From Deltaproteobacteria bacterium (lineage in GTDB: Bacteria > Desulfobacterota > Dissulfuribacteria > Dissulfuribacterales > UBA3076): a stretch of DNA of 34,164 nucleotides. Each line of letters begins with the position of its first letter. The first letter of the stretch is position 1. The notes beneath the pieces were generated by a model. The model was given only the letters and a program-made list of their open reading frames with translations. It did not search any database and was not told where the DNA came from. A program made the translations under genes and the position numbers. This document shows, in pieces, positions 16,153 to 22,356 of this stretch. The DNA lies in assembly GCA_027004715.1 (NCBI GenBank), contig JALTHG010000029.1, positions 1 to 34,164 of the forward strand. The letters are read 5' to 3'.

Positions 16153-17259
16153 TCAGGCATCTCTGATCCCTGCGATGAACTCTTCGGTCATCTTATAGGC
16201 CTCTGCATCTGTAAACTGTCTGGGAGGATGCTTCATAAAGTAGGCCGATGGAGAGTACAGGATACCTCCCTTGCCACGGTCAAGGGCCAGTTTGCAACAC
16301 CTGATGGCATCAATGACAACACCACCAGAATTGGGAGAGTCTTCTACAGACAGACGCAGCTCTAGATTCATAGGGATATCGCCAAAGAGCTTGCCCTCCA
16401 TACGGATAAAGCATATCTTGTTGTCTTTTTGCCATGCCACCCAGTCACTGGGCCCAATGTGTATATCTTCATCGTCCAGCCGTTCCTCACCCAGTTGGGA
16501 CTGTACAGATTCTGTCTTGGATTCCTTTTTGGAGACCAGACGCTTCCTGTCGAGCATGTTCAGGAAGTCTGTGTTGCCGCCTGTATTCAATTGATAGGTC
16601 CTTTCCAATTTTACTCCCCTGCTCTTGAACAGATTGGTGAGTACCCTGTGTACAATAGTGGCACCGAGCTGTGACTTCACATCGTCGCCAATGATGGGTA
16701 TGTTCTTTTCTTCAAAACGCCTTCCCCACTCCGGATCACTGGCAATAAAGACCGGCATATTGTTTAGAAACCCCACCCCTGCCTCCAGGGCACATTCTGC
16801 ATAAAATTTGACGGCCTTTTCAGAGCCTACGGGCAGGTAGTTCAAGAGCATATCAGCACCAGATTCCCTTAAGGTCTTTACTATCTCTTCCTTGCTTGCC
16901 TCCTTCTCTTCAGATAGGAGAAAGGTATATTTCTCGTCGTAATTCTTCATGTGGTCTGCAAAGCCATCCAGGACCTGGCCCATCCTAACGACCACTCCCT
17001 TTTGGGGTACATCTCTATATATTGTCTTGGTACAGTTAGGGAGTTGAAAGATGGCCTCTGATATGTCTTTACCTACCTTTCTCTTGTCAATATCAAAGGC
17101 CGCCACTACCTCGATATCTCCAGGTCTATAGCCACCAATATCCCAGTGCAGGGAACCTATAGCCTCCTTCTTATCACCGTGCCTGTAATATTCGATCCCC
17201 TGTATTAGTGAACTTGCACAGTTACCGATACCTGCAATGGCGATTCTTACCTTATCCAT
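16153..17259 (-). CDS. ino1: Inositol-3-phosphate synthase (prokaryotic type)
   Basis: The enzyme converts glucose-6-phosphate to L-myo-inositol-1-phosphate (1D-myo-inositol 3-phosphate) with catalytic NAD+. The 368-residue length matches the short archaeal/actinobacterial/thermophile type rather than the ~530-residue eukaryotic one. The NAD-binding motif [12 protein letters not shown] lies at residues 10-21. [14 protein letters not shown] is the second Rossmann strand. [17 protein letters not shown] holds the conserved catalytic lysine region, and [12 protein letters not shown] is also diagnostic. It lies 100 bases after the Re-citrate synthase-like gene on the same strand. The product could feed inositol lipids or, in a thermophile, di-myo-inositol phosphate; no downstream gene in view decides this. 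Confidence 0.93.
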
Positions 17260-17358: not shown

Positions 17359-19188
17359 TCAATTTTCGACCTCTTCTTCTATCTTGGCGAGCTCCTCAAA
17401 CCGAAGATCTATTCCCAGGATACCTACAATTTCATCTTCATCGTTACGGATTGGACCTGAGACAGTAATACACAGGGCACCTGTGATCCTGGACGTATAG
17501 AAGTCTGATACATGGATCTTGCCGTCTCTTAAGGGCTCGATAAACCAGGAACGCCCTGAGAAGTCACTATTTAGGTGGTAATTGGCATATTTTGCTCTAT
17601 CTTCAATATGCGTGAAGTTTTGGGTAATCTTGTGTCCATCTGCATCGACTACATAAAGGAACTGTATAAAGGGATTGTCTTCAAGGACCTGCTCAAACAC
17701 AGGCCTTGCAGCCACAGGATCCATAGACTTTATCTCTCTACGGTCTATCAGATCTTCTACCAGGTGGAATGCCAGCTCGTGTGCCTTGAGCTTTAGCTCT
17801 TCAAACTCAGAGGTAAAGAGCTCTGGTAGATACTTCCTGGCAAGGATCCCCATCTCTTCATTGGACATAGAGGTAACCCTGCCTTGCTCATACTGTCTCA
17901 TTATCTCTTTGTGTATGTGTATTATTCCTGGATGGCGTTTATCTACCATCTTTTCTTTAGGTAGATCTAGATGTACATTTATCCAGTATGCAATGCCTGC
18001 AGAGCCTGACTTGTCAGAGATAATGACCGACACTGGCCTTCCAAGGATCTTTTTGGTGTTAAATATGTTATAAATCTCTTCATTTTTGAGGATACCATCT
18101 GCGTGTATACCAGCGCTGGTTGCATTGAAGTTCTCACCGACCAGGGGATAATTTTTGGGGATATGTGCTCCGAGCTCTCTTTCAAAATATCTGGCCATCT
18201 CTGTAATGGCCTTTGTATCTATCCCATCATCTGTCCCTCTCAATGCTATACGCTCGATCAAGACTGCCTCTATAGGGGTATTGCCAGTACGTTCACCAAA
18301 GCCAAGCAAGGTACCATTTATGGCCTCACACCCATATAGCCACGCAGTAGTGGCATTGATCACTGCCTTGTGAAAGTCATTGTGGCCGTGCCACTCAAGG
18401 AGTTCCCCTGGCACACCTGCATCGTCTATCATGGCCCTTACCAGTTTTGGGACACTCCTTGGAAGGCATGCACCTGGATAGGTAACACCATAACCAAGTG
18501 TATCACACAGCCTGATCTTTATATCTATACCACTTTCTTCTCTCAACTTCATGAGTTCAATGGCAAACGGCACGCAGAATCCATATATGTCTGCCCGTGT
18601 GATGTCCTCAAAGTGACAACGAGGACGTATTCCCATGTCCAGGGCATCCTTAACAATACTGAGGTATTCATCCATGACCTGGCCCCTGGACTTTTTGAAC
18701 TTTAAGAATATATGATAGTCAGAGGCAGACGTGAGGATCCCAGTCTCTTTTAATCCCATCTCCTTGACGAGTCTGAGGTCTTCGGGCCTTGCCCTTATCC
18801 AGCCCGTGATCTCTGGATATTCATATCCCTTTTCTCTGCACCTGTCCACGGCCTCCTTATCCCTGGAGGTATACAGAAAGAACTCACACTGACGTATTAT
18901 CCCCTTTGGACCACCCATACGGTGCAGAAAGTCAAAGATAGTGTCTATCTGTTCTACTGTATAGGGAGGTCGGGCCTGCTGACCATCCCTAAAGGTGGTA
19001 TCTGTTATAAGCATATTGGCACATGGTGAGGGCATTACATACTTGTGATCAAAGTCAATTTTACAGACCTCATCATAGGGACAGGTCTTCCTCATGAGAT
19101 TTGGCTGGGCGACGTCTCTCAGCCTGTATTTCCAGTGGTCACTGTGTTCATGATCCAATAACCTGCGTTCGGGATTCCACTTTGCCAT
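17359..19188 (-). CDS. Re-citrate synthase-like enzyme with C-terminal Cache/PDC-like domain
   Basis: A 609-residue fusion. Residues ~30-465 form an HMGL/isopropylmalate-synthase TIM barrel with TTFRDGQQ (64-71; catalytic R67, metal ligand D68), metal histidines H267 and H269 in EWHGHND, GERTGNTP (298-305) and SAGIHADGILKNEEIYNIF (358-376). The sequence pattern, including PYDEVCKI, PYTVEQI and GGPKGIIRQCEFFLY, closely resembles the Re-citrate synthase described in Clostridium kluyveri and sulfate reducers, which condenses oxaloacetate with acetyl-CoA. Homocitrate or isopropylmalate synthase is less likely. Residues ~495-600 look like a Cache/PDC sensor half: FIQFLYVVDADG, GRSWFIEPLRDGKI, SDFYTSRITGALCITVSGPI, VGILGIDLRFEEL. 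No membrane segment is present, so the domain would be cytoplasmic, perhaps allosteric. AGGAG precedes the ATG by five bases. Confidence 0.82.
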   Translation of the reverse strand: MAKWNPERRLLDHEHSDHWKYRLRDVAQPNLMRKTCPYDEVCKIDFDHKYVMPSPCANMLITDTTFRDGQQARPPYTVEQIDTIFDFLHRMGGPKGIIRQCEFFLYTSRDKEAVDRCREKGYEYPEITGWIRARPEDLRLVKEMGLKETGILTSASDYHIFLKFKKSRGQVMDEYLSIVKDALDMGIRPRCHFEDITRADIYGFCVPFAIELMKLREESGIDIKIRLCDTLGYGVTYPGACLPRSVPKLVRAMIDDAGVPGELLEWHGHNDFHKAVINATTAWLYGCEAINGTLLGFGERTGNTPIEAVLIERIALRGTDDGIDTKAITEMARYFERELGAHIPKNYPLVGENFNATSAGIHADGILKNEEIYNIFNTKKILGRPVSVIISDKSGSAGIAYWINVHLDLPKEKMVDKRHPGIIHIHKEIMRQYEQGRVTSMSNEEMGILARKYLPELFTSEFEELKLKAHELAFHLVEDLIDRREIKSMDPVAARPVFEQVLEDNPFIQFLYVVDADGHKITQNFTHIEDRAKYANYHLNSDFSGRSWFIEPLRDGKIHVSDFYTSRITGALCITVSGPIRNDEDEIVGILGIDLRFEELAKIEEEVEN

Positions 19189-19273
19189 AATTACTCCTTT
19201 TTGATTATAGATTATAAATTATAACTACTGATTTTCTTTTTGATTAACATTTCTCTATACGATTATAGCGTCT
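19189..19273 (-). promoter_or_regulatory. AT-rich gap with three tandem TATAAT boxes upstream of the Re-citrate synthase-like gene
   Basis: On the minus strand TATAAT occurs at 19218-19223, 19211-19216 and 19204-19209, an exact 7-base period, with a fourth at 19262-19267. The tract sits just before the Shine-Dalgarno of the Re-citrate synthase-like gene. Any could act as a -10 element, giving the gene its own promoter within the aspS run. No good -35 is found at 16-18 bases (best is TTAATC), so this is tentative. Confidence 0.35.
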
Positions 19274-21058
19274 CTAGGTCTTCCATCCTGGCCTTAGATA
19301 GAGCTCGGCCAGTTGGGCCATATTTACCTTTGCCGGGGCATGGGTCATGAGACACTGGGCCTTTTGCGTCTTTGGAAAGGCTATGACATCTCTTATTGTG
19401 TCTCTTCCTGCCATAATCATCACCAGGCGATCCAGTCCAAATGCAATGCCCCCATGTGGTGGGGCTCCATGCGCCAGGGCCTCAAGGAGGAAGCCGAATT
19501 TGTCCTGGGCCTCCTCTCTGGAAAAGGAGAGTGTATTGAATACAGCCTCCTGTATAGAGGACTGGTGGATACGGATACTTCCTCCCCCTACCTCATTTCC
19601 ATTGAGGACCAGGTCGTAGGCCCTGGACCTCACGGATGCAGGGTCAGTTGAGAGCAGGCCCAGGTCTTCTTCCTTTGGAGATGTAAATGGGTGGTGCAGG
19701 GCAACAAATCTGCCCTCATCTCTGTCATATTCTACCAGGGGGAAATCAGTGACCCATATAAAGCTAAAGCCCTCTGTAGGTATGAGCCCGGCACGCCTGG
19801 CAAGCTCCAGCCTGAGTTCTCCCAGGACCTTACATACCGTGGTCCTCTGATCTGCCCCAAAGAAGAGGATGTCTCCAGGGGTTGCATCTACCTGCTGGGC
19901 TATTGCTGATCTCTCTGCATCAGAGAAGAACTTTGCTATGGGTGACTGCCATGAGCCGTCTCTCTTTATCTTTACCCATGCAAGCCCCTTGGCCCCAAGG
20001 TCCATAGCAAACCTGGTAAGGTCATCCAGGTCCTTTCTGGAGAGTTCTCCCATACCCTTTGCATTTATGGATTTTACTACTCCACTGGCAGAGACTACCC
20101 TATTAAAGAGCTTCAGCCTGCATCCCCTTACAATATCTGATATATCTCGGAGTTCCAGGCCAAAACGGACATCTGGACGATCGGTCCCAAAGCGGTCTAT
20201 TGCCTCTTGATAGGTCAGGACTCGAAATGGGGTCTCGACTTTATAGCCCAGTACTTCTTTAAAGATAAAGCTCATCAGGCCTTCTACCAGTCCCATGACG
20301 TCGTCTTCTTCCACAAAGGACATCTCTATGTCGAGCTGTGTGAACTCTGGCTGACGGTCGGCCCTCAGGTCCTCGTCTCTGAAGCATCTCACTATCTGGT
20401 AATAGCGATCGAGGCCAGAGACCATCAGGATCTGTTTATACAGCTGAGGAGATTGTGGCAGGGCATAAAAACAGCCTGGGTTTACCCTGCTGGGGACAAG
20501 ATAGTCCCTGGCACCCTCTGGGGTACTCCTTGTCAGCATAGGGGTCTCGATCTCGAGGAAGTCATGGTCATTTAGATAGGACCTCATGGCCTGGCAGACC
20601 CTATGGCGGAGCACGATATTTCTGACCATATGAGGTCTCCTGAGGTCCAGATAGCGATATCTGAGCCTCAGCCCCTCAGAGACCTCTCTCTCTTCGTCGA
20701 GAGAGAATTCAGGGGTCACAGAGGTATTCAGTATGCGGAGCTCTTGACATGCAAGTTCTATCATACCAGTCTTTATCTTTGGGTTTTCCATGCCTTTGGG
20801 CCTTCTTCGGATCTTGCCCTTTACTGCAATTACATATTCGCTCCTGAGACTGTGGGCCTTTTGGTGGGACTTGCGATCTAGCTCAGGGGCAAACACTACC
20901 TGGGTGATCCCCTTACGGTCACGGAGGTCTATAAAGATGAGTCCTCCGTGGTCTCGGCGTCTGAGCACCCATCCCATAAGTACTACTTCCTGACCCAGGG
21001 CTGTCTCTGTAAGACTATAGCAGTCGTGGGTACGTTTCAGGCCTTTCATTGAATCCAT
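19274..21058 (-). CDS. aspS: Aspartate--tRNA ligase (probably non-discriminating type)
   Basis: A class II aminoacyl-tRNA synthetase of 594 residues, the normal bacterial length. It has an N-terminal OB anticodon-binding domain (about 1-115). The catalytic core carries motif 2 CFRDEDLRADRQPEFTQLD, a bacterial GAD-type insertion (about 290-420) and motif 3 GGIAFGLDRLVMIM near the end. In the OB domain the sequence is RRRDHGGLIFIDLRD. The His (H37 here) stands where discriminating enzymes such as E. coli AspRS have Leu, which is typical of enzymes that also charge tRNA-Asn. GAGG lies eight bases before the ATG. hisS precedes it with a 41-base gap, the common hisS-aspS pair. Confidence 0.97.
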   Translation of the reverse strand: MDSMKGLKRTHDCYSLTETALGQEVVLMGWVLRRRDHGGLIFIDLRDRKGITQVVFAPELDRKSHQKAHSLRSEYVIAVKGKIRRRPKGMENPKIKTGMIELACQELRILNTSVTPEFSLDEEREVSEGLRLRYRYLDLRRPHMVRNIVLRHRVCQAMRSYLNDHDFLEIETPMLTRSTPEGARDYLVPSRVNPGCFYALPQSPQLYKQILMVSGLDRYYQIVRCFRDEDLRADRQPEFTQLDIEMSFVEEDDVMGLVEGLMSFIFKEVLGYKVETPFRVLTYQEAIDRFGTDRPDVRFGLELRDISDIVRGCRLKLFNRVVSASGVVKSINAKGMGELSRKDLDDLTRFAMDLGAKGLAWVKIKRDGSWQSPIAKFFSDAERSAIAQQVDATPGDILFFGADQRTTVCKVLGELRLELARRAGLIPTEGFSFIWVTDFPLVEYDRDEGRFVALHHPFTSPKEEDLGLLSTDPASVRSRAYDLVLNGNEVGGGSIRIHQSSIQEAVFNTLSFSREEAQDKFGFLLEALAHGAPPHGGIAFGLDRLVMIMAGRDTIRDVIAFPKTQKAQCLMTHAPAKVNMAQLAELYLRPGWKT

Positions 21059-21099: not shown

Positions 21100-22356
21100 T
21101 CACATATCAATCAGGTTCTCCAGACCTGATATTAGATTATTATCAATGGGAATTTTTTGCTGGTCATGTGTCTTCATGTCTCTGACTATCAGTCTCTCTT
21201 CTTTGATCTCATCCTCTCCTAAGATAAGCACATAGTGGGCACCCAGTCTGTTGGCCTGTCTCAACTGGGACTTAAGGCCCCTGTCTTCATAAGACATCTG
21301 GACCCTCAGTCCATGACGGCGCCAGGTCCCTATCCAGGGTATGACCTTCTTCCTGGCAGTTAGACCCAGGGCCACTACAAAGAGATCAATAGGCAGTGTC
21401 TCTTCATCAGCTTCAAGCAGGAGTAGGAGCCGATCTACCCCTATAGCCATCCCTACTCCAGGGAGGTCTGGCCCCCCCAGGTCCCTTAATAGACCGTCAT
21501 ACCTGCCACCGGCCGCCACTGTGCTCTGTGCCCCCAGATCTGGAGATACTATCTCAAAGGTGGTCATGACATAGTAATCAAGGCCCCTGACCAGATAGGG
21601 GTTTATGACAAATGGGATATCCAGGACCTCCAGGGATTCCAGGACCTTATTTATATGCTCTGTACATTCAGGGCAGAGATACTGCCTCATCAGAGGAGCG
21701 TTCTTCATGATCTCTCTACAGCTCTTTTCCTTACAGTCAAAGACCCGCAGAGGATTGGTCTTGCTTCTCCTCTGACAGTTTGGACATAGGTCCTGAAATA
21801 CGCTCTCAAGATAGCTCTTGAGTGCATCTCTGTATCCAGGTCTACACCTTGGGCATCCCAGGGAGTTGATCTCTAGCCGGACGTTTTTGACCCCGAGCCG
21901 TACTATGATATCCCAGGCCATCCAGATGACCTCCAGGTCTGAGAGCGGGGCCTTTGTGCCCAAGAGCTCTGCATCTATCTGATAGAATTGACGAAGCCTG
22001 CCTTTTTGGGGCCTTTCATGTCTAAACATAGGACCCATGGTAAAGAGCTTCAAGATCGGTGACTGGGCATAGAGTCTGTGTTCATTCACTGCCCTCAGGA
22101 GCCCGGCCGTTGCCTCTGGCCTTAGGCTCAGAGATAGGCCCTTTCTGTCAGGAAAGGTATACATCTCCTTTTCTACAATATCGGTATACTCTCCGATTCC
22201 TCTGGAAAATACCTCTGTCTTCTCTACCAGGGGGATCCGTATCTCTTTAAACCCAAAGGTATTGAAGACGCCGTATGCAAGGTCTTCAATACGGTGCCAG
22301 GACCTGATCTCTTGAGGTAATATGTCCTTAAATCCACGAACGGCCCTTATAGCCAT
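21100..22356 (-). CDS. hisS: Histidine--tRNA ligase
   Basis: A class II synthetase of 418 residues, standard for bacterial HisRS. It begins AIRAVRGFKDILPQE. Motif 2 is FRHERPQKGRLRQFYQ (111-126), the histidine-specific motif is RGLDYY (257-262), and GGRYDGLL (283-290) and GVGMAIGVDRLL follow. The C-terminal anticodon-binding domain starts at about 325. The insertion domain has eight cysteines in four pairs (C168/C171, C191/C194, C208/C213, C228/C231), as in a subset of bacterial HisRS, suggesting metal-binding ribbons. GGAG precedes the ATG. It is the first gene of the minus-strand run hisS-aspS-Re-CS-ino1-radical SAM. Confidence 0.97.
   Translation of the reverse strand: MAIRAVRGFKDILPQEIRSWHRIEDLAYGVFNTFGFKEIRIPLVEKTEVFSRGIGEYTDIVEKEMYTFPDRKGLSLSLRPEATAGLLRAVNEHRLYAQSPILKLFTMGPMFRHERPQKGRLRQFYQIDAELLGTKAPLSDLEVIWMAWDIIVRLGVKNVRLEINSLGCPRCRPGYRDALKSYLESVFQDLCPNCQRRSKTNPLRVFDCKEKSCREIMKNAPLMRQYLCPECTEHINKVLESLEVLDIPFVINPYLVRGLDYYVMTTFEIVSPDLGAQSTVAAGGRYDGLLRDLGGPDLPGVGMAIGVDRLLLLLEADEETLPIDLFVVALGLTARKKVIPWIGTWRRHGLRVQMSYEDRGLKSQLRQANRLGAHYVLILGEDEIKEERLIVRDMKTHDQQKIPIDNNLISGLENLIDM

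Follow-up and report, generated by a model that had tools for sequence, protein, structure and literature searches.

The window, the whole 34,164-nucleotide stretch of DNA that was analysed, carries on its minus strand an open reading frame for a Re-citrate-synthase-like protein with a predicted C-terminal Cache domain (Table 1). The frame reported in the initial annotation is real and its coordinates are exact; the strand, left unstated there, is minus. The ATG start codon lies at 19188, is preceded by AAAAGGAG, and has a good ribosome-binding site (AGGAG at 19194-19198). The same annotation held that the protein has no membrane helix, and the hydropathy of the 609-residue chain agrees, its highest mean over 19 residues being 0.85.

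Directly upstream are aspS and hisS, and aspS lies beside the Re-type gene at 68 of 150 loci. The order hisS-aspS-Re-citrate synthase is conserved in Desulfobacterota; none of the other phyla sampled showed it. Within the organism's own order, a radical-SAM gene follows the Re-citrate synthase gene. An inositol-phosphate-synthase-like gene (window positions 16153-17259) stands between the two here, a position that it occupies only in the organism's own genus (L001, L084).

Table 1. Features of the locus, with positions in the window and the basis of each assignment.
Feature	Position	Strand	Basis or remark
hisS, upstream of aspS (41 bp gap)	21100..22356	-	named from sequence
aspS, aspartyl-tRNA synthetase, directly upstream of the fused synthase (85 bp gap)	19274..21058	-	named from sequence
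Re-citrate-synthase-like gene with predicted C-terminal Cache domain	17359..19188	-	open frame, 609 codons/residues
HMGL-type TIM barrel, residues 60-333	18190..19011	-	Pfam PF00682, 112 bits, 3.2e-32; model pLDDT mostly >90
FRDGQQ, residues 66-71, catalytic Arg/metal Asp motif	18976..18993	-	invariant in 63 homologues
HGHND, residues 267-271, metal-binding His-x-His	18376..18390	-	histidines invariant in all groups compared
Post-barrel subdomain, residues 334-458, HCS_D2-like	17815..18189	-	weak PF22617 match
Connector helix and loop, residues 461-488	17725..17808	-	helix 461-481 in model
Predicted Cache/PDC sensor domain, residues 489-601	17386..17724	-	PF22673; AlphaFold2 and Foldseek; hmmsearch of PDB
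Predicted ligand pocket, R546, W548, F549, Y564, S566, T575, D594	17407..17553	-	alignment to PctA; conservation

Identity of the enzyme and its relation to Si-citrate synthase

The catalytic arginine, the metal aspartate and the His-x-His pair of an HMGL-type barrel are all present. Within the FRDGQQ motif, F66 and Q70 are specific to the family, with L and E/T at these positions in NifV, isopropylmalate synthase (IPMS) and citramalate synthase (CMS). Five further residues, E102, R190, H192, R244 and T357, are invariant in the family and absent from the NifV, IPMS and CMS groups; as a conjecture, the basic residues among them could bind oxaloacetate through its second carboxylate. The barrel is 48-61% identical to its Bacillota orthologues.

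A weak likeness to homocitrate, isopropylmalate and citramalate synthases (25-30% identity) would allow the barrel to be one of these enzymes instead of a citrate synthase, but we consider this very improbable and rejected it on the tree, the curated cut-offs and the paralogues. The barrel did not group with homocitrate or isopropylmalate synthases: its clade (63 rows) is split from NifV, IPMS and citramalate synthase by a branch with an SH-aLRT support of 100, in a tree from a quick search without bootstrap in which the program flagged long branches. The five family-invariant residues are missing in those groups. All NCBIfam homocitrate synthase and IPMS models score the fused synthase far under their cut-offs, several of which are exceeded by the genome's own true IPMS. 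This separate LeuA lies beside LeuC- and LeuB-type genes, and a second paralogue in the genome is citramalate-synthase-like. The complementarity with Si-citrate synthase described below also argues against these alternatives.

A third HMGL paralogue of ∼380 residues occurs in some genomes of the order (L155-L157); it is nearest to NifV and carries C at column 357, where H is otherwise conserved. A second, remote clade of Re-citrate synthases is recognised in the literature (Heliomicrobium, C. difficile and Dehalococcoides).

A search of this genome for Si-citrate synthase found none. The genome does encode an aconitase-size protein (open frame of 647 residues) and a protein of the isocitrate dehydrogenase family, both distinct from the products of the LeuC- and LeuB-type genes next to LeuA. 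Orthologues of the Re-type gene are found in 40 of the 46 genomes of the order, none of which has an intact Si-citrate synthase, while three of the six genomes without the orthologue do (G034, G007, G028). In the phylum sample of 297 genomes, 27 have both enzymes, 118 only the Re type, 122 only the Si type and 30 neither (Fisher p=9e-28, a value that overstates independence because the genomes are related). For most of the sampled genomes of the phylum that carry it, the Re-type enzyme is the sole apparent citrate synthase. Exclusivity is not absolute, since both synthases are present in 11 of the 38 genomes outside the phylum-wide sample that were reached through their loci, several of these from other phyla. 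Use of Re-citrate synthase has been reported for Desulfovibrio vulgaris (PMC12016533); the Desulfovibrio genomes checked (G083, G086, G093) have the fused gene and no Si enzyme.

One carrier of the fused gene, G030, retains a Si-citrate synthase fragment with five stop codons (G030:C256:19754-20065), an apparent relic of replacement. It is the only one of the 40 carriers in the order with any match to Si-citrate synthase.

Because the Si enzyme is absent here, aconitase and isocitrate dehydrogenase are present and the two synthases are complementary across the phylum, Re-citrate synthase is the best reading of the enzyme, with the Re stereochemistry as its putative mode. This agrees with the initial annotation, which had assigned the barrel to this type: it falls in its own clade and is the genome's sole candidate citrate synthase.

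Distribution and history of the fused form

The gene is present in 145 of the 297 genomes of the phylum. The reading frame extends into the Cache domain in 140, is naturally Cache-less in four (L146-L149, in G099, G116, G288 and G366) and is cut in one. An initial scan retained 80 loci, almost all of them full length, from Desulfobacterota, Nitrospirota, Omnitrophota, Spirochaetota, Lentisphaerota, Elusimicrobiota, Fibrobacterota and other phyla. An artefact of assembly or a frameshift can be dismissed as the origin of the fusion, since no point in its favour was found and the identical continuous frame recurs across many other phyla as well as in about 140 genomes of this one. In Bacillota, where 27 of 250 genomes have the gene, the Cache domain is reached in none of the 27. 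The fused form is thus the common architecture of many diderm anaerobe phyla and the standard form in carrier Desulfobacterota, and the Bacillota members are those without Cache. The initial annotation supposed that this enzyme had gained a sensor domain; so wide a spread of the fused form contradicts a recent local gain.

Cache-less homologues end near the end of the post-barrel subdomain (L083, L146 and the Bacillota loci). Pfam searches of L083 and L146 found no Cache domain, and no Cache remnant was found in the available DNA around and downstream of the L146-L149 genes. G099, a carrier of the Cache-less form, is without Si-citrate synthase. Most Bacillota forms sit among the fused ones in the tree, on which the fused label needs four changes, so at least some losses of Cache or transfers of the barrel occurred. 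Among the four Cache-less genes of Desulfobacterota, L147 and L148 nest inside the Bacillota group, which suggests that they were acquired by transfer.

Multiple copies of the Cache-less gene, two or three in each genome, occur in the Bacillota genomes G548, G573 and G521. An Omnitrophota copy (Cal1bin1, L040:3965-5722) has one stop codon near the end of the matched stretch.

The predicted Cache domain and its pocket

Residues 497-601 match the MCP-like_PDC_1 profile (PF22673) with 53.4 bits against a Pfam cut-off of 27 (E=4e-14), and a weaker match to dCache_1 falls under that model's own Pfam cut-off. The former profile is found in 62 and the latter in 60 of the 63 aligned homologues. AlphaFold2 modelled residues 460-609 alone with a pLDDT of 90.2 and a pTM of 0.85, and the full chain, from 63 homologues, with values of 89.0 and 0.73; given this full-length pTM, the orientation of barrel and Cache is uncertain. 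Cache/PAS-type sensor domains are among the best 50 Foldseek matches of the C-terminal model, the nearest of these 50 being the KinD sensor, followed by Tlp3 with leucine or isoleucine; the soluble EAL protein YkuI, DctB, CitA and PctA are further neighbours. A search of PDB sequences with the domain profile (hmmsearch) gave Tlp3 (5e-11), KinD (4e-10), PctA (4e-7) and YkuI (6e-4). The full chain is closest in structure to homocitrate synthase 6ktq, and full-length LeuA was also matched. With PF22673 above its curated cut-off and a Cache fold in the model of the C-terminal region (460-609), the C-terminal domain is predicted to be a Cache fold, as the initial annotation had proposed from motifs that we locate at residues 545-549, 561-566, 577-580 and 589-600. 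Its placement of the domain, at the position equivalent to the leucine regulatory domain of isopropylmalate synthase, was also right.

Cache domains normally lie on the outside of cell-surface receptors. The typical, though neither universal nor defining, setting, extracytoplasmic with flanking membrane helices, is not found here, as the protein has no hydrophobic segment suited to a membrane helix.

In PctA, the dCache_1 amino-acid motif consists of Y121, R126, W128, Y129, Y144 and D173, of which Y121, R126 and W128 contact the carboxylate of the ligand and Y144 and D173 its amino group (PMC9796306). PctA residues R126, W128, Y129, Y144, D146, T155 and D173 align to R546, W548, F549, Y564, S566, T575 and D594, so that five of the six motif positions are kept, with F for Y129; Y121 is lost, its equivalent position 541 being variable among homologues. 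Conservation across the 63 homologues is high for R546 (58), W548 (63), F549 (62), T575 (62) and D594 (63); S566, at the position of PctA D146, is invariant, and the column of Y564 has 52 Tyr and 10 Phe. Of the 63 homologues, 58 retain the relaxed amino-acid motif in full, and R546, W548, Y564 and D594 are conserved above random Cache columns (p=0.00015). Taken as a whole, the Cache is evolving more rapidly than the barrel (mean entropy 1.86 vs 1.04 bits), which indicates that the pocket, rather than the surface, is being kept. The connector (461-488) is conserved less than either (2.3 bits).

The sensors of the dCache_1AA type (PctA and, as a further amino-acid receptor, Tlp3) share the R-x-W-(Y/F)...Y...D pocket residues, but they are double-Cache, extracytoplasmic membrane receptors, and their Y121 and D146 are not kept here. 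Pfam and the model both indicate a single Cache half in the fused synthase. We liken its domain to dCache_1AA on these alignments but do not file it as a member, because one defining feature is lacking and another is only partly present. KinD (pyruvate complex 4jgp) has R131, Tyr, Ser and Thr in common with the domain, but is the extracellular sensor of a kinase and is without the W and D. YkuI (2bas) has a related C-terminal PAS/Cache-like domain on a soluble EAL-domain protein, but is c-di-GMP-related and not part of central metabolism.

Proposed role of the Cache domain

We consider it fairly likely that the protein is a cytoplasmic Re-type citrate synthase in which a single C-terminal Cache domain serves as an allosteric metabolite sensor. 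From the conservation of the pocket we infer ligand binding; the ligand, the allostery and its direction are likewise putative. The enzyme would convert acetyl-CoA and oxaloacetate into citrate in the cytoplasm. A ligand would be seated in the Cache pocket with its carboxylate held by R546 and W548 and its amino group by Y564 and D594, as in amino-acid chemoreceptors. Once bound, it would move the connector helix (461-481), which links the post-barrel subdomain and the Cache, and would thereby alter enzyme activity. Such control would be comparable to that of leucine, which acts through an unrelated C-terminal domain of isopropylmalate synthase. LeuA has the same barrel and an end-product-sensing domain at the same C-terminal place, but its leucine-binding domain is of another fold. 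The Sulfolobus homocitrate synthase (6ktq, RAM-deleted) offers the closest barrel structure, but makes homocitrate and has a RAM domain where the fused synthase has Cache.

The ligand would be a small carboxylate, most likely an α-amino acid, either glutamate, in which the pathway supplied by the enzyme ends, or aspartate. Glutamate is a candidate because it is the obvious end product of the branch from oxaloacetate to 2-oxoglutarate, and aspartate because it reports oxaloacetate supply and because the gene is found directly behind aspS at the 68 loci noted above; the aspS neighbourhood alone does not identify the ligand. As a tentative extension, a receptor-type Cache may have been recruited to the cytoplasm for amino-acid-sensing feedback (glutamate or aspartate) on entry to the TCA cycle in a large part of anaerobic bacteria.

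It is also conceivable, though rather doubtful, that the ligand of the Cache is a keto or organic acid such as pyruvate, 2-oxoglutarate or citrate, all else being as proposed above. The best of the 50 structural matches is KinD, whose structure contains pyruvate and which shares R131, Tyr, Ser (at S566) and Thr with the domain; DctB with succinate and CitA with citrate are also among these 50; and the loss of Y121 and the invariant serine in place of PctA D146 depart from the amino-acid motif, the serine as in KinD. However, W548 and D594 of that motif are invariant here and replaced in KinD. Structural demands may partly explain the invariance of this W and D. A small amino acid appears the probable effector and a keto acid less likely.

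Somewhat less probable still, the Cache could now be structural, serving oligomer assembly or stabilisation, with sensing lost. Cache and PAS domains frequently have a dimerisation role (PMC8694187), Cache-less orthologues exist, and the domain evolves faster than the barrel; yet its most conserved columns (W548, S566, D594, T575 and R546) coincide with the ligand-contact positions of PctA, which is unexpected in a scaffold. Since Bacillota and four Desulfobacterota genomes have Cache-less homologues, the domain is probably dispensable for catalysis.

If allosteric sensing is correct, Cache domains would act not only in surface receptors but also as direct allosteric regulators of a metabolic enzyme, and Cache would join the LeuA and RAM domains of related enzymes as a regulatory add-on. 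In many anaerobic bacteria, a metabolite, probably an amino acid, may then be a direct switch on entry to the TCA cycle. The conserved predicted pocket makes sensing directly and cheaply testable, with natural Cache-less orthologues as ready controls.

In literature searches of partial coverage, with key papers outside it, nothing relevant was found linking citrate or isopropylmalate synthase with a Cache domain; searches for SYN_02536 and for a lead on histone-methyltransferase misannotation found nothing. The enzyme is known and its regulatory domain apparently undescribed.

Re-citrate synthases of the Clostridium kluyveri and Syntrophus aciditrophicus type (Li 2007; Kim 2013; both cited in PMC12016533) likewise have an HMGL-type barrel related to homocitrate synthase and come from anaerobes without Si-citrate synthase, but the sampled Bacillota forms end before the Cache. 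Computed masses are 48-57 kDa for the Bacillota proteins and 71.2-71.4 kDa, without a tag, for the fused Syntrophaceae relatives (71.2 kDa for L033). The S. aciditrophicus enzyme was reportedly purified as a tetramer with tagged subunits of 72.9 kDa. As this mass fits those of the fused Syntrophaceae proteins, the characterised S. aciditrophicus enzyme is probably fused too.
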